Shown: positions 1,286 through 12,420 of the stretch, one piece after another | How positions within the stretch are numbered: position 1 is the stretch's first letter | Layout of the letters: every line of letters begins with the position of its first letter | Origin: Cellulomonas sp. RIT-PI-Y | GTDB lineage: Bacteria; Actinomycetota; Actinomycetes; Actinomycetales; Cellulomonadaceae | Assembly (NCBI RefSeq): GCF_025642745.1 | Contig: NZ_JANZKP010000001.1 | Coordinates: 124,001 to 188,000, forward strand | Reading direction: 5' to 3' | Length of the DNA: 64,000 nt | The notes under the pieces: model-generated | What the model saw: the letters and a program-made list of their open reading frames with translations, nothing else | Told to the model about the DNA's origin: nothing | Databases searched by the model: none | Program-made: the position numbers and the translations under genes

Positions 1286-2353
1286 ATGACGCCCACCGCC
1301 TCCCCCGCGACGGAGCTCGAGGTCCGCGGCCGCACCGTCCGGGTGAGCAATCCGCAGAAGGTGGTCTTCGCCGAACGCGGCTTCACCAAGCTGGACGTGG
1401 TCGAGTACCTGCTCGCGGTCGGCGACGGGATCCTGGGCGCGCTGCTGCACCGCCCGACCACCCTCGAGCGCTGGCCCAAGGGGGTCTTCCCCGGCGCCAT
1501 GCTCTCCACCCGCGCGGACAACCGCGGCGACGCGTTCTTCCAGAAGCGCGTGCCCCCGGGCGCACCGGACTATGTGCAGACCGCCCGGATCGCCTTCCCC
1601 TCCGGTCGCACCGCCGACGAGGTCAGCCCCACCGAGCTGGCAGTGGTGATCTGGGCCGCCAATCTGGGCACCCTGACCTTCCACCCCTGGCCGGTCACCG
1701 CCGACGACGTCGAGGCCCCGGACCAGCTGCGGATCGACCTGGACCCCCAGCCCGGCACCGACTTCTCCGACGCCGCCCGGGTCGCCCCGCACGTGCGGGA
1801 GATCCTGGCCGAGCACGGCCTGACCGGGTATCCCAAGACCTCCGGCGGCCGAGGCATCCACGTGTTCGCGCCGATCGCACCGCGGTGGACCTTCACCCAG
1901 TGCCGCCGGGCCGCGATCGCCGTCGGCCGTGAACTGGAACGCCGGCTGCCCGGGCAGGTCACCACCAAGTGGTGGAAGGAGGAACGCGGCCCGAGCATCT
2001 TCGTCGACTACAACCAGATGGCACGGGACCGCACCATCGCCTCCGCCTACTCGATCCGGCCCCACCCGCGCGCCACCGTCTCCACCCCGCTGCGCTGGGA
2101 CGAGGTCGCGGACGTGCGGCCCGACGACTTCGACCTGCGGACCGTCCCCGCCCGGTTCGCGGAGGTCGGCGACCTGTTCGCGCCGCTCGCCGCCGACGCT
2201 CCGGAGCGGGGATCGCTGGACGGCCTGCTCGCGCTGGCCGACCAGGACGAACGCGATCACGGGCTGGGCGACCTGCCGTACCCGCCGGAGTACCCCAAGA
2301 TGCCGGGCGAGCCGAAGCGGGTGCAGCCGAGCAAGGACCGGGACCGGACGTAG
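1286..2353 (+). CDS. LigD-type polymerase domain protein (NHEJ primase-polymerase)
   Basis: Stand-alone archaeo-eukaryotic primase superfamily polymerase, 355 aa, as found N-terminal in LigD. In this family the enzyme adds nucleotides at double-strand break ends during Ku-dependent non-homologous end joining. The catalytic Asp pair is seen in RIDLDP (Asp151, Asp153). HPWP at about 133, the KTSGGRGIH motif and DYNQMARDRTIASAYS are also typical. Neither the ligase nor the phosphoesterase domain is fused, and no Ku or ligase gene occurs in the window. The ATG at 1286 was preferred over more upstream codons because homology begins shortly after it and a -10 box is placed for a leaderless start. 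Confidence 0.9.
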   Translation: MTPTASPATELEVRGRTVRVSNPQKVVFAERGFTKLDVVEYLLAVGDGILGALLHRPTTLERWPKGVFPGAMLSTRADNRGDAFFQKRVPPGAPDYVQTARIAFPSGRTADEVSPTELAVVIWAANLGTLTFHPWPVTADDVEAPDQLRIDLDPQPGTDFSDAARVAPHVREILAEHGLTGYPKTSGGRGIHVFAPIAPRWTFTQCRRAAIAVGRELERRLPGQVTTKWWKEERGPSIFVDYNQMARDRTIASAYSIRPHPRATVSTPLRWDEVADVRPDDFDLRTVPARFAEVGDLFAPLAADAPERGSLDGLLALADQDERDHGLGDLPYPPEYPKMPGEPKRVQPSKDRDRT

Positions 2354-4047: not shown

Positions 4048-4846
4048 TCGACCACTGCGACCAGCTGCCCGGGTAGAGCACCGGCGTGTACCCGGCCATC
4101 GTGAGCGCGGCGGCCTGGTGCGCGGCGGTGACGCCCGACCCGCAGTAGACGGCGACTCGTCCGTCCGCGGGCGCTCCGAGCGCGGCGAATCGCCGGGTGA
4201 GGTCGTCCGCGGGCAGGAAGGCCCCGGTGCCGTCGACGTTCTCCGCCGTGGGGGCGCTGACCGCGCCGGGGATGTGGCCCGCGCGCGGGTCGACCGGCTC
4301 GACCTCGCCCCGGAAGCGCTCGGCGGCGCGGGCGTCCAGCAGCAGGCCGTCGGCGGGCCAGGCGGCGACCCCGTCCGCGTCCAGGGTGGGCAGCTGCCCA
4401 CCGGTCAGCTCGACGTCACCGAGCGGTGGGTGCACCTCGGTCTGATCCAGGTCACCCCCCGCGGCGGTCCAGGCGGCGAGCCCGCCGTCGAGGATCCGCA
4501 CCTCGGCGACCCCGGCCCAGCGCAGCAGCCACCAGGCGCGGGCCACCGACATCGACCCGGAGTCGTCGTAGACCACGACCCGCTCGTCCTGGCGCAGGCC
4601 CCAGGTGCGGGCAGCGCGCTGCAACGCGTCCGGATCGGGCAGCGGGTGCCGACCGCCGGCGGGGGTGGGCGGCGCGGCCAGCTCGGTGTCCAGGTCGACG
4701 TAGACCGCCCCGGGCAGGTGACCGGCACGGTAGCCGTCGACCCCGGGCGGGCCGCCCAGCTGCCAGCGGACGTCCAGCAGTCGGGGCGGACGGTCGGCGG
4801 CCAGCTCGTCGGCCAGCGCGGTGGCGGAGACGATCACCTCAGGCAT
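4013..4846 (-). CDS. sseA: Thiosulfate / 3-mercaptopyruvate sulfurtransferase
   Basis: Two tandem rhodanese domains, 277 aa. It transfers sulfane sulfur from thiosulfate or 3-mercaptopyruvate to a thiophilic acceptor in the cytoplasm. The N-terminal domain (about 1-135) carries the family motif AGHLPGAVYVDLD but no catalytic Cys. The C-terminal domain (about 155-277) holds AGHIPGAVSAPT and the active-site loop YCGSGVTA with Cys235. The CGSGVT loop is more usual for mercaptopyruvate-type enzymes. Its 3' end is the probable integration target of the neighbouring cassette. The start is preceded by a leaderless-type -10 box. Confidence 0.9.
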   Translation of the reverse strand: MPEVIVSATALADELAADRPPRLLDVRWQLGGPPGVDGYRAGHLPGAVYVDLDTELAAPPTPAGGRHPLPDPDALQRAARTWGLRQDERVVVYDDSGSMSVARAWWLLRWAGVAEVRILDGGLAAWTAAGGDLDQTEVHPPLGDVELTGGQLPTLDADGVAAWPADGLLLDARAAERFRGEVEPVDPRAGHIPGAVSAPTAENVDGTGAFLPADDLTRRFAALGAPADGRVAVYCGSGVTAAHQAAALTMAGYTPVLYPGSWSQWSSDPERPVATGS

Positions 4847-4852
4847 GACGGC

Positions 4853-4858
4853 ACGGTA
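4853..4858 (-). promoter_or_regulatory. Leaderless -10 box (TACCGT) of sseA
   Basis: TACCGT on the minus strand with 6 nt before the ATG at 4846, and no ribosome site. Confidence 0.55.
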
Positions 4859-4895
4859 GCCCGGTCCTGGGCGGCCGTCATCGGCTGCACCGCGC

Positions 4896-5192
4896 TCAGC
4901 CCGGCAGCACTGGGATCCAGCGCGTGCCCTCCCGGCGGGTGACCACCGACCGCGGCACGGCTGCCAAGCCCGTGACCTCGCCGACCACCCGTCCGGCGAC
5001 CTGGAAGGCTCCGGCGTCGTCGTCGGCCAGGTAGCGCACGGTGATCCGGGGCTCCCCGGCCACCACCGCGAGGTCGCGCGCCTCGACCCGGGTCAGCTCC
5101 GCGGCGGCGTCCGCGGCGGCGGGCAGCACGTGCTCCGGGCGGACTCCGGGGAGCAGACGGCCGACGACCAGGATGACGCGGTAGGAGGGCAT
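4896..5192 (-). CDS. Small hypothetical protein
   Basis: 98 aa, not recognised. It begins MPSYRVILVVGRL and looks like a small alpha/beta protein with no signal peptide or membrane segment. The ATG at 5192 was chosen over an upstream one because the extension is cysteine-rich and atypical, and because CAGGCT, a weak -10 box, ends 6 nt before it. It runs divergently from jetA with only 50 bp between the starts, so the two may share a control region. Coding is supported by strong third-position GC bias. Confidence 0.6.
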   Translation of the reverse strand: MPSYRVILVVGRLLPGVRPEHVLPAAADAAAELTRVEARDLAVVAGEPRITVRYLADDDAGAFQVAGRVVGEVTGLAAVPRSVVTRREGTRWIPVLPG

Positions 5193-5228
5193 CCGGACAG
5201 CCTGGCATGAGCACCCGCCCGCGATCAC

Positions 5229-5234
5229 TAGGCT
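5229..5234 (+). promoter_or_regulatory. Leaderless -10 box (TAGGCT) of jetABC
   Basis: TAGGCT lies 8 nt before the ATG at 5243. It supports that start over the in-frame ATG at 5207, which would precede the promoter. Confidence 0.5.
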
Positions 5235-5242
5235 GGCCCGCG

Positions 5243-6727
5243 ATGATCACTCGTGCCGAAGGTGCCTACCTGGGCGCCGTCCGGGCGTTCCAGAACCCGA
5301 TGCTCGATCTGCTGCACAAGCGGCATGCCCCGCTCATCGTCTCGTTGCTGTCGCTGGTGTTCACCGCGGAGCGGCCGACGGTGCCGGTGGATGACGCGCA
5401 CACCGAGATCGCGGACGCCCTGGACCAGCTGCGTGCCTCCGGGTACGGCGACGACCTGCCCAGCGGCAACGCCCGCGACCTGTGCCGGCAGTGGGCCGAC
5501 GCGGGCTGGCTGGTGCGCCAGGTGCTGGAGGACGACGTCGAGGTCTACCAGGTGTCCGCGCACGCGGTGGGAGCACTGGAGGTCGCCGGCCGCGCCGGGG
5601 GCACCCGCGCCCGGGTGTCGCAGTCCCGGGTGCGCACCCTGCTGGACGCGGTCGACCGGCTGGCACAGCACGCGGACCCGGACGTGCTGGTCGCGATGGC
5701 CCGGCTGGACGCGGAGATCGCGGAGAAGAAAGCGGAGCTGGACCGGATCCAGCGCACCGGCACCGTCGAGCAGGTCGGCGAGGAGACCCTGCTCGAGGAG
5801 GCGGAGAACCTGCTCCACCTGGTCCGCGAGCTGCCCGGTGACTTCGCGCGGGTGGCCGAGTCGATCAAGGCCATGCAGCGCGACGTGGTCACCGCCCTGC
5901 GCCAGGACGAGCGGCCCACCGGCGACGTGCTGCGCGAGTACCTGGAACGCGGCGAGCACGTGATGGAGTCGACCGTCGAGGGGCGGGCGTTCGCCGGCGC
6001 GTTGCGGCTGATCGGCGACCCGCGGCGGCTGGACGAGCTGTCGGCCCAGCTGGACGTGGTGCTGCGGCACCGGTTCACCCGTCTGCTGCCCGCCCAGCAG
6101 CGCACCGAGTTGAGCGAGATCGGCCGCCGGATCGAACAGGGCCTGGAGCAGGTGTTCGCCACCCAGCGCGAGGCCTCGTCGGTGATCACCACCCAGGTCC
6201 GCCACCACGACCCACTGCGCGACCGGCAGGTCGACGACCTGCTGCGGGACGTGATGACCGGGATGCAGGCCTGGATGCCGGACTCCCGTCGCGGCCAGGC
6301 GGTCGACCCGCTGCGCCGCCTGCCGGTGGCCGAGGTGGACCACCTGCGCCAGACCCCCGGCGACCTGCGCCCGCCGCAGCCGCCGGACGCGCTCACGGAG
6401 TGGGACGACGACGCGGCCGAGGAGGTCTCGCACGCCGAGGCCCGGGCCTGGGGCGGTCCGCACTACGCCGAACTGGGCGCGTACCTGACCGACTGGCTGG
6501 GCACGCACCGGGACCTGGAAGGCACCGCGCTCGCGGACGCCTTCTCCGCCGCTCCGCCGCACCTGCGCCGACCGGTGGACCTGCTGGGTCTGCTGGAGAT
6601 CGCCGAGCAGTTCCGCAGCACCGAGACCGACACCATCGCCTACGTCGAGGCCGTGCGCCCCGATGGCACCCCGCGCCGCTTCGCCTTCGAGGGCGTGACC
6701 GTGCGGCTGGAGGACGAGCATGACTGA
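5243..6727 (+). CDS. jetA: JetA / MksF-like kleisin (DUF3375)
   Basis: 494 aa kleisin-type subunit of a bacterial SMC-like complex of the Wadjet (JetABCD) / MksBEFG family, which in characterised systems extrudes loops on small circular plasmids before cleavage. N-terminal winged-helix-like region (about 1-110), central helical and coiled-coil section rich in Glu and Arg (about 150-330), and a C-terminal part ending [13 protein letters not shown]. Length and order agree with DUF3375 proteins, which stand first in type I Wadjet operons. The stop overlaps the jetB start by 8 nt. Assignment rests on size, sequence character and the diagnostic gene order. Confidence 0.85.
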
Positions 6728-7454
6728 CACCGACGCCTTCATCGACACCGTCTCCATGGAGGAGGACCCGGGCGAGCTGTTCGCCGGCGACTCCGGCACC
6801 CTGGACGCCGACGTGCGCCGGGTGCTGGTCCGCCTGCTGCAGCGCCGGTTCCTGCTCGCGGAGAAGAACGCCGCGCAGTGGAAGACCCTGCTGGCCAACC
6901 AGCAGGTGATCGAGTCCCGGCTGCACGACTTGTTCGTGCACCTGGTGGTCGACCACGACCGCGGCATCGCCTACAAGCGCCAGGTCCGCTCCGACGAGCT
7001 GGACGTCCCGGTGCTGCTCCGCGACGAGGCGTACACCCGCGCCGAGACCCTGGTCCTGGTGCACCTGCGCACCGTGTTCCAGCGTGAGCGCGGCGCCGGG
7101 GAGACCTCGGTCCGGGTCGACGTGGAGGAGATCGAGCAGACCGCGCTGACCTACTTCGACCCGACGCTCACCAACCTGGCGACCCGGCAGCGGGAGATCC
7201 GCGCCGCGGTGGCCCGGCTGGCGAAGGACGGTCTGATCGAGGAGGTGTCCGAAGGGCGCTACCGGATCACCCCGCTGGTCGAGGTGGTGCTGAGCAACGA
7301 GCGCCTGGTCGAGCTGCGCGAGTGGCTGCGCACCCCCGGAGCGGAGGTGGTCGTCGAGGAGGACGCGCCGGAGCCCGACCCCGAGCCCGCACCGGTGGCG
7401 CAGACCCCGGAACTCCCGCAGGAGAACGACTTGTTCGAGGAGACGGACCGATGA
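6720..7454 (+). CDS. jetB: JetB / MksE-like subunit (DUF4194)
   Basis: 244 aa protein matching DUF4194, the small winged-helix accessory (KITE-like) subunit that bridges kleisin and SMC in Mks/Wadjet condensins. It begins inside the end of jetA (8-nt overlap) and its stop overlaps the jetC start as ATGA, giving a tightly coupled operon. The core runs from about residue 28 ([19 protein letters not shown]) to about 205. The C-terminal tail (about 210-244) is acidic and Pro-rich and probably disordered. It has no enzymatic motif, as expected. Confidence 0.85.
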
Positions 7455-10400
7455 CGATGGTGGACACGCTCTTCGGTCTGATCCCCGCGGCCTCGACCGG
7501 CCAGCAGTGGGTGGCCCGCGACCTGCAGCTGGTCAACTGGGGTGGCTACGACGGTCACCACCGGGTGCTGCTGGCGCCGACCGCCACCCTGCTGTCCGGT
7601 GGCTCCGGCTCCGGCAAGTCCACCCTGATGGACGCCTACATCGCGCTGCTCATGCCGCACACCACCCCGTTCAACGGGGCGTCGAACGGCGGGGTCGTCG
7701 GCCGCCCGCGCGGCAAGGACCAGCGCAACATCCTGTCCTACTCCCGCGGCAAGCTGGACGAGTCCCGCACCGACGAGGGCACCCGGGAGCGGGTGCTGCG
7801 CGGCGACGGCAAGGACACCTGGTCGGCGATCGCCATGACCTGGGCCGATCAGGGCGGCCGGGTGTTCACCGCGGTGCGCGCCTGGTACGTGCCGTCCGCC
7901 GCCCGGCACCTGGAGGAGGTCACCGCGGTGCGCGCCACCGTGGACGACGCCTTCGACCTGACCGCCCTGGAGACCGCCGCCGCCGAACGACTGGCCCGGC
8001 CCGCGGTGACCGGGACCGGTCTGACGGCCTACGACACCGACCGCGAGTTCACCGCCCGGCTCTGGTCCACCCTGGGCATCGGCGCCACCGGCGACGGCAG
8101 CCGCGCGGTGGGGCTGCTCGGCCGGATCCAGGCCGGGCAGCAGATCACCACGGTCGACGCCCTCTACAAGGCGATGGTGCTGGAGGAGCCGAGCACCTTC
8201 GCCACCGCGGATGCCGTGGTCGAGCAGTTCGACAAGCTGACCGGCACCCGTGACCAGATGATCACCGCCCGCCAGCAGGTCAAGGCCCTGGAGCCGATCC
8301 GCGAGCTGCGCAGCCGGATCGAGGGCGCCGCCGACCGGCTGCGTGTGATCGAGCAGCTCGGCGACGTGGACGCCCCGAACTCCCCCGCCGCGCTGTGGCG
8401 GCACGAGCAGCGGCTCGGCCTGCTGCGCGACGTCGAGCACGACCTGCAGCAGCGGCACCGCGGCGCCCAGCGCCAGGTGACCGAGACCACCGCCCGGGTG
8501 GAGGCCGCGCGCGCCGAGCTGGACGGGGTCAAGGAGACGCTGTGGAGCTCCGGCGGCGACCGGCTCGCCACCGCCCAGCGCGAGCACCGCACGGCCGAGG
8601 AGCGCCTGGCCCGGGTCACCGTCGCCCGCACCCGGATCGCCCAGATCGTCCGCGACGGACTGGACCACGACCTGCGGGCCAGGGCCGACTTCGACCGGCT
8701 GGTCGCCCAGGCCCGGGCCGCGCTCGCCGACGGGGACGCCAAGGCCGCCGCCCGTCGCGCGCTCGGCGACGCGATGACCGAGAAGAAGGACGCCGCGATC
8801 GAGCTGGCCCGGCTCCGGTCGGACCGGGTCGCCGCCACCTCGCACAAGGGCGCGATCCCGAGCGACCTGCTGCACGCCCGCGCCGCCCTGGCCGAGGCCG
8901 CCGGGATGACCCCGGAGCAGCTGCCGTTCGTCGCCGAGCTGATCGAGGTCCGCGCCGAGCACGAGCCGTGGCGGGAGTCGTTCAACCTCGCTCTCGGCGG
9001 CTTCGCGACCCAGCTGCTGCTGGACATGGCCGACCTGCGCCGGTTCCGGGACGCCATTGACGGCGTGCAGCTCGGCCGCCGCCTGCGGTTCGAGGGCGTG
9101 CCGACCGACATCCGCACCGAGGTCGCCCTCGACCCGCGCACCCTGCCCGGCCGCCTGGACTTCCGCTCCGGGCCGTTCACCGGCTGGCTGCGCACCGAGC
9201 TGGCCAACCGGTTCGTCTACGTCTGCGTCGACACCACCGGCGAGCTCTCCCAGCACCGCAAGGCGCTGACCCGCGCGGGGCAGACGTCGGACGGCGCGCG
9301 CGGTGCCCACGGTGGCGGCGGCCGGGCCAACCTGCTCGGCTTCAGCAACACCCGTCGGCTGGCGCAGCTGGACCGGGAGATCGAGTCCGCCCAGCGCCGG
9401 CTGTTGCTGGCCGAGCAGGGTGTCGAGTCCGCCGACGCCGGACTGGATCAGCAGGACGCCGAGCTGGAGGCCTTCCGCGCGATCGACGCGACCAGCTGGG
9501 ACGACATCGACACCGGCACCGCCGAGTCGGACCGGGACCGTTGGCAGCAGGTGATCGAGGACGTCACCGCGGGCAATCCCGAGGTGACCCGGCTCCAGGG
9601 CCGCGCCACCGAGCTGGAGGCGTCGATCCGGGCGCTCAGCGACCAGCTCGGCCGGGCCAAGGGTGACGCCGAACAGATCGCCGAGGTCTGGTCCGCGGTC
9701 AGCGACGACGTCGACGTGGCCCAGCGCGCCCTGGACGACGCCCTGGATGCCGAGCTCACCGTCGCCGACGACCAGCGCGACTACCTGGACGCCCTGCTCG
9801 GCAGCCCCGACGACCAGCCGCCCGCCACTCCGCGGGCCGCCCTGGACGCCTTCGACGCCCGCTCCGCCCGCGCCACCGAGCTGCTGCGCACCGACCGGCA
9901 GTCCGCCGAGCAGGAGATCGGCACCGCCCGGGACACCCTGGCCCGCACCTTCGAGACCTTCGTCGAGCGCTGGCCGGACCCGAACCTCGGCACCGACCCG
10001 GACGGCGCCTTCGCCGACTTCGACCGGATCCTCACCGAGCTGGAGGCCTCCGGGCTGCACGAGCTGGAGGCGGACTGGCGCAAGAGCCTGCTCCGGCTGT
10101 CCGGCAACGACCTCACCGACCTGTACAACGCGCTGTCCCGTTCGGTCCGGGAGATCAAGGAGCGGATCCGCCCGGTCAACGACATCCTCGCCGCCCTGCC
10201 GTTCGCCGACGACGACCACCGGCTGCGGATCGACGCCCGGGACACCCAGTCCACCGTCGTCGCCCGGTTCCGCAAGGAGCTGCGCGACCTGCGCGACGAG
10301 CTCGCCACGGAGGCCACCGACGACGAGCGGGAGCGCCGGTACACCCGGATGTCCCGCGTCATCGACCGTATCCGCCGCACCGCACCGGACTTCGCCGACC

Positions 10401-10807
10401 TGGTCGACGTCCGGCGCCACGTCCGGCTCTCCGCGGAGAAGGTCGACCTGGCGGGCGAGCACGTCGCGCTCTACGACCACATCGGCGAGAAGTCCGGCGG
10501 TGAGTCGCAGGAGCTGGTCGCGTTCATCGTCGGCGCCGCGCTGCGCTACCAGCTCGGCGACGCCGGGGCGGACCGTCCGCGCTACGCCCCGGTGTTCCTG
10601 GACGAGGCGCTGATCAAGGCGGACGCCCGGTTCACCGGCCGGGCGATCGGCGCCTGGCGCGGGCTCGGCTTCCAGCTGGTGATCGGTGCGCCGAACGACA
10701 AGTTCAGCGCGCTGGAGCCGCACGTCGACCTGGAGTACGTGGTGATCAAGGACGCGGCAGGACGGTCGCGGACCAAGGCGGTCGTAGGGGTGCCCGACCC
10801 GGCCTGA
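7451..10807 (+). CDS. jetC: JetC / MksB-like SMC ATPase
   Basis: 1118 aa SMC/Rad50-like ATPase, the motor of a Wadjet/Mks condensin. The N-terminal head has Walker [10 protein letters not shown] at about residues 50-58. A long coiled-coil region with a central hinge-like part spans about 290-880. The C-terminal head has the ABC signature SGGESQE near 1014 and Walker B VFLDEA near 1048. The length fits MksB/JetC. The three genes form one overlapping operon. The fourth gene, jetD (DUF3322/DUF2220 topoprim nuclease), which normally adjoins, is absent: upstream is a divergent small ORF, and downstream is a hydrolase with its own promoter. Confidence 0.9.
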
Positions 10808-10895
10808 CCCACCAGAGCACTCAGTCGGCCCACATCCCGCGCCTATTTCCGACCGGGCACCACCCAGATCCCGGTCGGCGGCGGCGAGCCGCTCC

Positions 10896-10901
10896 TACCG
10901 T
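10896..10901 (+). promoter_or_regulatory. Leaderless -10 box (TACCGT) of the first hydrolase
   Basis: TACCGT ends 7 nt before the ATG at 10909. It shows that this gene is not part of the jet operon. Confidence 0.5.
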
Positions 10902-10908
10902 CACCGTC

Positions 10909-12420
10909 ATGCAGACCTTCCTCACCCGTCGCGGGCGGACCACGGCCGTCGCCGCGAGCGCGGCCGCCCTCCTGCTCACCGCGTGCTCCTCCGGTTCGAC
11001 CACCGCCGACGACCCGAGCCCGACGCCGGTCGTCGGGCTCGACGCGATCTACGCCCAGGACCTCGACTGGACCGACTGCGGCGACCTCGAGTGCGCCGAC
11101 GTCGTCGTGCCGATGGACTGGAACGAGCCCGACGGCGACACGATCGCGATCGCGGTCAACCGGCGTGCCGCCACCGGGGAGCGGATCGGTTCGCTGCTGG
11201 TCAACCCCGGCGGGCCGGGCGCCTCGGGCCTGGACCTGGTCGAGAACTTCAGCCTGTACGGCTTCGGGGCGGCGATCGGCGAGCAGTACGACATCATCGG
11301 CTTCGACCCGCGCGGGGTCGGCGAGTCCGAACCGGTGACCTGCCTCGACGACGACGCGCTGGACGCCTACTTCGCGAGCGACACCACCGACGACGAGGCC
11401 GGCTACGCCGAGTCCGTCGCCCAGGCCGCCGCGTTCAACCAGGCGTGCCTGGACGCCACCGGTCCGTTCCTCCAGCACGTCGGGACGATCCAGGCCGCGA
11501 AGGACATGGACGTGCTGCGCGCCGTGCTGGGCGAGGACTCCCTGGACTACCTCGGGTTCTCCTACGGCACGTTCCTCGGCACCACCTACGCCGCGCTCTT
11601 CCCGGAGCGGGTCGGCCGGATGGTGCTGGACGGAGCGGTCGACCCGGGCGTCAGCGCCATCGAGGACGCGAAGGTGCAGGCGGCCGGGTTCGAGAACGCG
11701 ATGCGCGCCTACGTGGCGGACTGCCTCGCCGGTTCCACCTGCCCGTTGACCGGCACCGTCGACGACGGAGTCGCGCAGATCGTCGGTCTGCTCGACTCCC
11801 TGGCGGCCGCTCCGCTGCCCACCGGCGACGACGACCGACCGCTGACCGCGGCGCTGGGATTCCTCGGCTTGATCCAGCCGCTGTACGCGCAGGAGGTCTG
11901 GCCGTACCTGACCATGTCGCTGGACGCCGCGATCAACGAGGGCGACGGCAGCATGCTCCTGTACTGGGCGGACTACTACCTCGACCGCGGCGAGGACGGT
12001 CACTACACCAGCAACGCGAACTCGGCGATCGTGGCCGTCAACTGCGCCGACTCCGGCCCCACCGAGCTGACCTACGCCGAGTACCAGGCACAGGTCGCCG
12101 ACATCGCGACCGTGGCGCCCACCATGGCCGCGTTCTTCGCCGGACCGACCTGCCCGTCCTGGCCGGTGGCCGCCGAGGGCACGCTCGACGACTACAGCGC
12201 CGCCGGGTCCGCCCCGATCCTGGTCGTCGGCACCACCAACGACCCCGCCACCCCGTATGTCTGGGCGCAGGGGCTGACCGCCACCCTGGAGTCCGCCACC
12301 CTGCTCACCTACCAGGGCGAGGGCCACACCGCCTACGGATCGTCGAACTCCTGCGTCCTCGACGCCGTCGACGCCTACCTGATCGACGGCACCGTGCCCG
12401 CCGAGGGCACCACCTGCTGA
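10909..12420 (+). CDS. Secreted alpha/beta hydrolase lipoprotein, tripeptidyl-aminopeptidase type
   Basis: 503 aa exported peptidase-like hydrolase of the Streptomyces tripeptidyl aminopeptidase (Tap/SlpD) family. A signal peptide ends in lipobox LLTAC with Cys26, so the enzyme is membrane anchored outside. The oxyanion region is NPGGPGASG and the nucleophile elbow is GFSYGT with Ser218. The C-terminal domain holds the TNDPATPY (Asp) and GEGHTAYG (His) motifs. It probably trims short peptides from the N terminus. A close paralog lies inverted at 17284-18819, with nearly the same C-terminal residues (NSCVLDAVDAYLIDGTVP). Confidence 0.85.
   Translation: MQTFLTRRGRTTAVAASAAALLLTACSSGSTTADDPSPTPVVGLDAIYAQDLDWTDCGDLECADVVVPMDWNEPDGDTIAIAVNRRAATGERIGSLLVNPGGPGASGLDLVENFSLYGFGAAIGEQYDIIGFDPRGVGESEPVTCLDDDALDAYFASDTTDDEAGYAESVAQAAAFNQACLDATGPFLQHVGTIQAAKDMDVLRAVLGEDSLDYLGFSYGTFLGTTYAALFPERVGRMVLDGAVDPGVSAIEDAKVQAAGFENAMRAYVADCLAGSTCPLTGTVDDGVAQIVGLLDSLAAAPLPTGDDDRPLTAALGFLGLIQPLYAQEVWPYLTMSLDAAINEGDGSMLLYWADYYLDRGEDGHYTSNANSAIVAVNCADSGPTELTYAEYQAQVADIATVAPTMAAFFAGPTCPSWPVAAEGTLDDYSAAGSAPILVVGTTNDPATPYVWAQGLTATLESATLLTYQGEGHTAYGSSNSCVLDAVDAYLIDGTVPAEGTTC

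Follow-up and report, generated by a model that had tools for sequence, protein, structure and literature searches.

Repeated apparent loss of the JetD nuclease from jetABC operons of Cellulomonas and related genera

Results

A complete jetABC operon

The window, a 64,000-nucleotide stretch of the draft genome of Cellulomonas sp. RIT-PI-Y, carries three adjoining genes on its forward strand: jetA (5243..6727; 494 aa), encoding an MksF-like kleisin of family DUF3375 (Pfam, 390 bits); jetB (6720..7454; 244 aa), encoding an MksE-like KITE protein of family DUF4194 (148 bits; MksE model 29 bits, cut-off 27); and jetC (7457..10807, or from 7451; 1116 aa, 1118 from the earlier start), encoding an MksB-like SMC ATPase (SbcC_Walker_B 77 bits, AAA_29 72 bits). 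jetA and jetB share 8 bases; with a start at 7451, jetC would share 4 with jetB. The PADLOC models JetA1, JetB1 and JetC1 are matched over nearly full length (683, 360 and 1611 bits), and JetC also matches the MukB N-terminal model (30 bits, cut-off 23). All three ATPase motifs of JetC are encoded intact on the forward strand: Walker A (GGSGSGKS, 7598..7621), the ABC signature (SGGESQ, 10493..10510) and Walker B (VFLDEA, 10592..10609). An earlier sequence-only reading of this locus described three complete, overlapping condensin subunits with intact JetC motifs, and the Pfam and PADLOC matches and the motif check confirm that description. The closest JetABC relatives in a tree of 136 rows are those of a complete genome (G071) and then of the named species Cellulomonas denverensis; JetA identity is 73–91% in most same-genus loci and 60% at the lowest.

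Descriptions of Wadjet usually present a plasmid-cutting system of four parts, with JetA as the kleisin that joins two JetC motor dimers and JetB as the KITE subunit. The window operon unites homologues of JetA, JetB and JetC, and shares its kleisin, KITE and SMC families and its gene order with Wadjet type I (JetABCD/MksBEFG/EptABCD).

JetD is missing from the locus and from the genome

In contrast to Wadjet type I, no JetD/MksG (the CAP and Toprim nuclease) was found in this genome, a 3.52 Mb draft in 94 contigs that is 99.98% complete and ~73% G+C. The JetD_C/DUF2220 family (PF09983) has 0 matches across it. A clade-specific profile, built from five JetD proteins of the clade, has as its sole match a 19.8-bit piece at profile positions 98–182, outside the Toprim part, which lies in a 170-aa ORF on another contig with the look, by eye, of a helix-turn-helix regulator. 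The site directly 3′ of jetC (10808..10908, forward strand) is where jetD starts in JetD-bearing relatives; we looked for a JetD remnant in these 101 bases before the next gene and saw none. The genome holds one DUF3375 protein only. The absence of jetD noted in the sequence-only reading thus stands and extends to the whole genome, and neither of these JetD searches recovered the nuclease elsewhere that it allowed for.

The neighbours are also as described: a divergent 98-aa ORF on the left (4896..5192, reverse strand) and on the right a TAP-like alpha/beta hydrolase with a lipobox-like N-terminus (by eye). The 98-aa ORF had been put forward by position as a replacement effector, a suggestion that did not survive comparison: of 40 other same-genus loci, tblastn finds it in one, that of G071, and gives no hit at the C. 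denverensis locus, which is almost as close to the window as G071. It has no match in Pfam, PADLOC or NCBIfam, and we do not count it as part of the system. A replacement effector beside the operon was rejected more generally by neighbour clustering: of 41 same-genus loci, at most 8 have the same family immediately beside jetC, and the 8 loci with the commonest directly downstream family all belong to one subclade. The promoter of its own that the sequence-only reading gave the hydrolase was not confirmed: a sigma-70-like site was not found in 4800–11000, which is weakly telling at ~73% G+C. A membrane-protein family (by eye; cluster 3) lies near the operon in 21 of the 41 same-genus loci (within L039–L078), in most of them at a distance of a few kb on the jetA side, and is absent from the operon's surroundings in the window. 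A LigD-type primase-polymerase gene occupies window positions 1286–2353, ~3 kb left of the operon.

The operon occurs beside SMC

SMC scores 918 bits in the same genome and was matched in all 30 genomes tested, this one included, with 28 above the family's curated cut-off. Judged by SMC alone, the operon therefore occurs beside SMC-ScpAB and has not replaced it. JetABC and SMC trees were compared in 26 of the 30 genomes (G169 and G176 were removed by a motif filter; SMC is in pieces in G161 and G130), giving JetABC distances 1.11 times those of SMC, and so about the same pace of evolution, a correlation of r = 0.586, and 7 of 23 splits in common against 0.19 expected. Since the trees partly agree, descent of the operon looks partly vertical; since they differ at 16 of the 23 splits, some transfer is likely. 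Searches of plasmid and phage collections did not recover JetC of this clade: 7 of 72,556 plasmid records and 1 of 50,697 phage records match, all at no more than 40% identity.

JetD-less operons across the family and order

Across 200 genomes of the family, DUF3375 (JetA) was detected in 156 and JetD_C in 31, all of them among those 156, so that 125 of the 156 JetA-bearing genomes have no JetD_C match. DUF3375 is absent from the other 44, and the operon is thus not essential. An order-wide sample of 198 genomes, whose JetA-bearing rows include 15 genomes of the same family, had JetA in 78, JetD in 39 and both in 37; 41 of the 78 JetA-bearing genomes were without JetD. One genus of this sample (g35, family f11) gave no JetD_C match in 10 of 11 DUF3375-bearing genomes, and the nuclease-free form may be the rule there.

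The same pattern is visible locus by locus. At the window and 40 other same-genus loci, jetD adjoins jetC in four (L047, L060, L063, L065) and a remnant is present in two (L045, L067); 34 have no trace of jetD, and L078, which ends inside jetA, is uninformative. Among the best 80 of at least 249 confirmed named loci, a JetD match lies directly 3′ of jetC in 40 (two being remnants) and none in 40. Within these 80, Cellulomonas has 3 full or nearly full jetD genes, 1 remnant and 13 loci with none, and Actinomadura has 11, 1 and 4 (full, remnant, none); jetD follows jetC in 6 of 7 Actinoplanes and 6 of 9 Nocardia loci. Complete orthologous jetABCD operons among them thus include those of Cellulomonas gelida and of many Actinomadura, Actinoplanes and Nocardia. 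Where seven loci were viewed closely, the start of jetD overlies the end of jetC in six (L047, L060, L063, L065, L093, L098) and falls two bases later in L102. Some contigs end 0.7–1.3 kb past jetC (e.g. L041, L062, L147, L151, L158), and only the head of jetD is detectable there.

A JetD encoded elsewhere was also looked for: none was found in the window's genome, and in G148 and G084, where one does lie elsewhere, it goes with an additional complete JetABC of separate lineage. Such other-lineage systems, JetABCD in full, are found in G046, G148 and G084 (L256, L257, L258). Two further JetABC lineages in the family are without an adjacent JetD (L130–L134 and L099/L108/L109), each with recurring neighbours, which in L108 and L109 are valS-like and F420-ligase-like genes (by eye); of the eight genomes concerned only G037 has JetD, beside its main-clade operon.

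Stages of jetD decay

Several loci are consistent with jetD caught in the course of decay: firstly, C. phragmiteti (G171) has an in-frame TGA at jetD codon 23, possibly a sequencing error; secondly, Cellulomonas sp. URHE0023 (G165) retains a tail piece in two frames, again possibly a sequencing error, and a head piece by eye; thirdly, G176 has a C-terminal piece with one other gene in between, and Actinomadura sp. 6K520, among the best 80 of at least 249 loci, has a 30-bit tail. Absence is clean in G127, G170 and G144, where jetC is followed after 41–61 bases by an LLM-type oxidoreductase gene (by eye); the same gene stands 3′ of jetD in G162 and G169. In 13 loci of other genera (L100, L101, L103–L105, L089, L112, L115–L120) a glycogen-phosphorylase-like gene (by eye) follows jetC, directly or one gene later, and in one of these genomes, G141, jetD lies between the two. 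A neighbour shared in this way across genera points to a conserved chromosomal context, as for an old resident.

In G192, which is C. denverensis to judge by its identical JetC, an orphan broken jetD piece lies on contig 15 (L259, 6606–7163), away from the JetD-less jetABC and with no jetABC in the 12 kb around it. jetC itself is broken at two main-clade loci of draft genomes (L088, L095 in G028, G133; 91% and 83% complete), by sequencing error or true loss.

jetD appears to be an old member of the operon

The JetABC tree was built from 181 loci, less 19 and then 26 duplicates with identical JetC, giving 136 rows: 40 with JetD, 3 with remnants and 93 with none. The 19 comprise four cut by contig ends (L078, L086, L152, L176), two with broken jetC (L088, L095) and 13 of other lineages; among these, L176 has JetD and L086 (G135) probably has it on another contig end. 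From an earlier set of 101 loci, 13 had been dropped.

The JetD and JetABC trees are congruent. Over the 40 JetD-bearing rows, the two sets of distances correlate at r = 0.876, against 0.539 for the largest of 5000 permutations, and 19 of 37 splits are shared, against a permuted mean of 0.15 and maximum of 2. An initial congruence test had given a weak result with 10 JetD rows (r 0.57, p 0.043), the JetD tree being poorly supported. JetDs of the clade also stand apart from three JetDs of other lineages (support 100/100). These data indicate that JetD and JetABC travelled together and that jetD is an old member lost repeatedly. Parsimony requires at least 21 changes of JetD state on the 136-row tree, a count that cannot separate gain from loss; if jetD was never regained, 41 losses occurred in the 122-row part that holds every JetD; a 49-row clade on the Cellulomonas side accounts for 17 of these losses. 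JetD is found in 0 rows of the 14-row outer clade, where its absence could be original. Within the remainder, the trees indicate an ancestral jetABCD operon from which jetD was lost many times, the window's lineage included.

According to the sequence-only reading, a jetD at this place in close relatives would point to simple recent loss. jetD is indeed at the same place in other Cellulomonas; a simple recent loss is not borne out, as the window's clade in the tree consists of 18 rows, every one JetD-less (G135, fragmented and probably JetD-bearing, was not placed) and JetABC is still constrained. Branch lengths hinted at faster JetD evolution before loss in Cellulomonas, which we do not claim because the ratio of JetD to JetABC protein distance is only 1.74 there versus 1.46 on the other side.

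Selection on JetABC is unchanged without JetD

JetABC is under purifying selection in the JetD-less operons. Between the window and G071, dN/dS is 0.163 for JetA, 0.115 for JetB and 0.157 for JetC, and between the window and C. denverensis 0.189, 0.143 and 0.192. Median values for JetA/B/C are 0.129/0.139/0.130 (~0.13) in 32 JetD-less nearest-neighbour pairs (JetC range 0.04–0.27), 0.144/0.194/0.186 in 17 mixed pairs and 0.096/0.111/0.174 in 16 JetD-bearing pairs, in which JetD itself has 0.238. JetA and JetB are thus slightly less constrained and JetC slightly more in JetD-less than in JetD-bearing pairs, which are not all independent and differ in taxa between classes.

JetABC change was also counted in 16 sets of sisters or near-sisters, each with an outgroup: 1055 substitutions fell on the JetD-less side and 1088 on the JetD-bearing side (Wilcoxon p 0.57), and the JetD-less side was the faster in 5. 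Nor did any stretch of JetA, JetB or JetC have a clear excess of change on JetD-less branches, as a relaxed JetD interface might (lowest p 0.054, uncorrected). Frames of jetABC are full-length in nearly all main-clade loci, and all three ATPase motifs match the strict pattern in 89 of 96 JetD-less rows. Loss of jetD leaves no visible mark on the evolutionary rate of JetABC.

A near-invariant motif at the JetB N-terminus

Residues 7–28 of JetB (6738..6803, forward strand) form a conserved motif, FIxxVxMExDPxELFxGDxGTL, in which F7, V11, M13, E14, L20, F21, G23, D24, G26, T27 and L28 do not vary, gaps aside, across 39 rows from JetD-less operons of the genus. This motif has a mean entropy of 0.45 bits, compared with 0.39 in the folded body and 2.35 in the tail, and the motif is common to JetD-bearing and JetD-less operons of the clade. 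By its conservation it is a candidate docking site for a partner. JetD touches an IFDR motif in the JetB N-terminus, as stated in a review (PMC10586767). We did not equate the two motifs: the JetB profile aligned no IFDR motif in solved chains. Were they the same, the site would have a use other than JetD.

Discussion

Lacking JetD, the window operon is not a type I Wadjet system, and one would not expect it to cut plasmids in the known way. On the points that can be tested it matches MksBEF: MksF-, MksE- and MksB-like subunits (the MksE model above its cut-off), intact ATPase motifs, no MksG, and SMC in the same genome. MksBEF of Pseudomonas aeruginosa is likewise a nuclease-free, three-subunit, Muk-like condensin beside SMC. 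It belongs to another phylum and is likened here by description; the present clade differs in having many losses, some recent-looking, and JetD-bearing sister species. In P. aeruginosa, MksBEF serves chromosome organisation and segregation together with SMC (PMC7485682), and the review has it as presumed to have lost JetD (PMC10586767). MukBEF shares the plan of kleisin, KITE and MukB-like ATPase, and the window JetC matches the MukB N-terminal model; however, MukBEF seems to have taken the place of Smc-ScpAB in its hosts, while the present genome does have SMC, and the window JetC has ~1116 residues, MksB proteins being described with a shorter coiled coil.

Because jetD has been dropped many times while the motor stayed under the same selection, the JetABC motor very probably performs some task for which cutting is not required. 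The reading we favour, and hold to be probable by a modest measure, is that the operon descends, minus its nuclease, from a type I Wadjet/MksBEFG system and has been kept for a cutting-independent and likely chromosomal role as a second condensin. An ancestral jetABCD operon would have lost jetD in the window's lineage, with jetABC kept as useful without DNA cutting. By analogy with known systems, a kleisin-linked dimer of JetC motors with the JetB KITE subunit would load on DNA, and ATP hydrolysis by JetC would drive loop extrusion, which may aid chromosome organisation and segregation beside SMC, as for P. aeruginosa MksBEF, the one source for the chromosomal part. In Wadjet, DNA extrusion is ascribed to JetC, the subunit that hydrolyses ATP (PMC10586767); once JetD is gone, a small circle would stay uncut even after complete extrusion, which would leave a loop-extruding condensin. 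Chromosome organisation is the likeliest of the readings offered before this analysis, and the operon probably acts as an MksBEF-like, JetD-independent second condensin. Such a role cannot be assumed, since MksBEFG of Corynebacterium glutamicum, with its nuclease present, affects non-chromosomal DNA only, according to two reports (PMC7083940, PMC10123090).

Another explanation is that JetABC defends against plasmids without cutting them, compacting or sequestering small circles so that they are silenced or badly partitioned, in the manner proposed for Smc5/6. Compaction of circular DNA by Smc5/6 is described in the review (PMC10586767); equal constraint on JetABC with and without JetD fits one shared task, small circles for instance, and the clade's JetC was not found on plasmids. 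We regard it as unlikely. More doubtful still is that JetABC works with some other nuclease, encoded elsewhere and docking on the conserved JetB N-terminus. The near-invariance of that motif without JetD and the reported JetD contact at the IFDR motif (PMC10586767) speak for it, and a partner of the JetD type could still be in use; against it, a search covering the JetD family found no JetD-like protein in the genome, the top family directly downstream of jetC reaches just 8 of 41 loci in one subclade, and the IFDR motif did not align with the JetB profile.

The remaining explanations concern history. The majority of rows are JetD-less, as is the whole outermost clade of 14, parsimony does not separate gain from loss and the 10-row test was weak, all of which would suit an old nuclease-free condensin of Cellulomonas that gained JetD now and then. 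Yet the 40-row JetD tree tracks the JetABC tree closely, the clade's JetDs stand apart from the three of other lineages, and jetD lies directly 3′ of jetC with remnants near the same place; JetD as a late acquisition is very improbable and is disfavoured within the 122-row part, while the outer clade could fit it. A decaying relic, with jetD gone first and jetABC on its way out, would agree with the lack of DUF3375 in 44 of 200 family genomes and the broken jetC of two drafts. It is strongly disfavoured, and we give it hardly any credence, in view of the full-length frames in nearly all main-clade loci, JetC dN/dS of 0.04–0.27 in JetD-less pairs, the absence of acceleration after JetD loss in 16 comparisons and the ATPase motifs kept in 89 of 96 JetD-less rows.

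Returning to the second-condensin reading, a bolder form of it can be entertained, tentatively and at rather less than even confidence: JetABC may be a JetD-independent condensin first, even in JetD-bearing species, and the nuclease a detachable defence module dropped some 20–40 times while selection on the motor stayed visibly the same. If so, each JetD-bearing and JetD-less sister pair would be a natural experiment in which a defence machine becomes, or always was, a chromosome machine. Loss of JetD is already mentioned in print, in one paper, the review (PMC10586767), and searches of open-licence literature returned nothing on Wadjet in Cellulomonas or on Wadjet lacking JetD, which is weak evidence of novelty. 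The new elements are how widely and how often the nuclease has been lost and that the motor has kept its rate throughout. That selection stays the same after the cutter has gone, time after time, is evidence from comparison for a separate task of the motor. For annotation, it follows that a match to JetA, JetB and JetC alone does not identify a plasmid defence system. Species pairs suited to testing are C. gelida and G170, G169 and C. uda, Myceligenerans indicum and M. pegani, and Actinomadura violacea and Actinomadura sp. KC216. In G148 and G084 a JetD-less main-clade jetABC coexists with a complete JetABCD in one genome.
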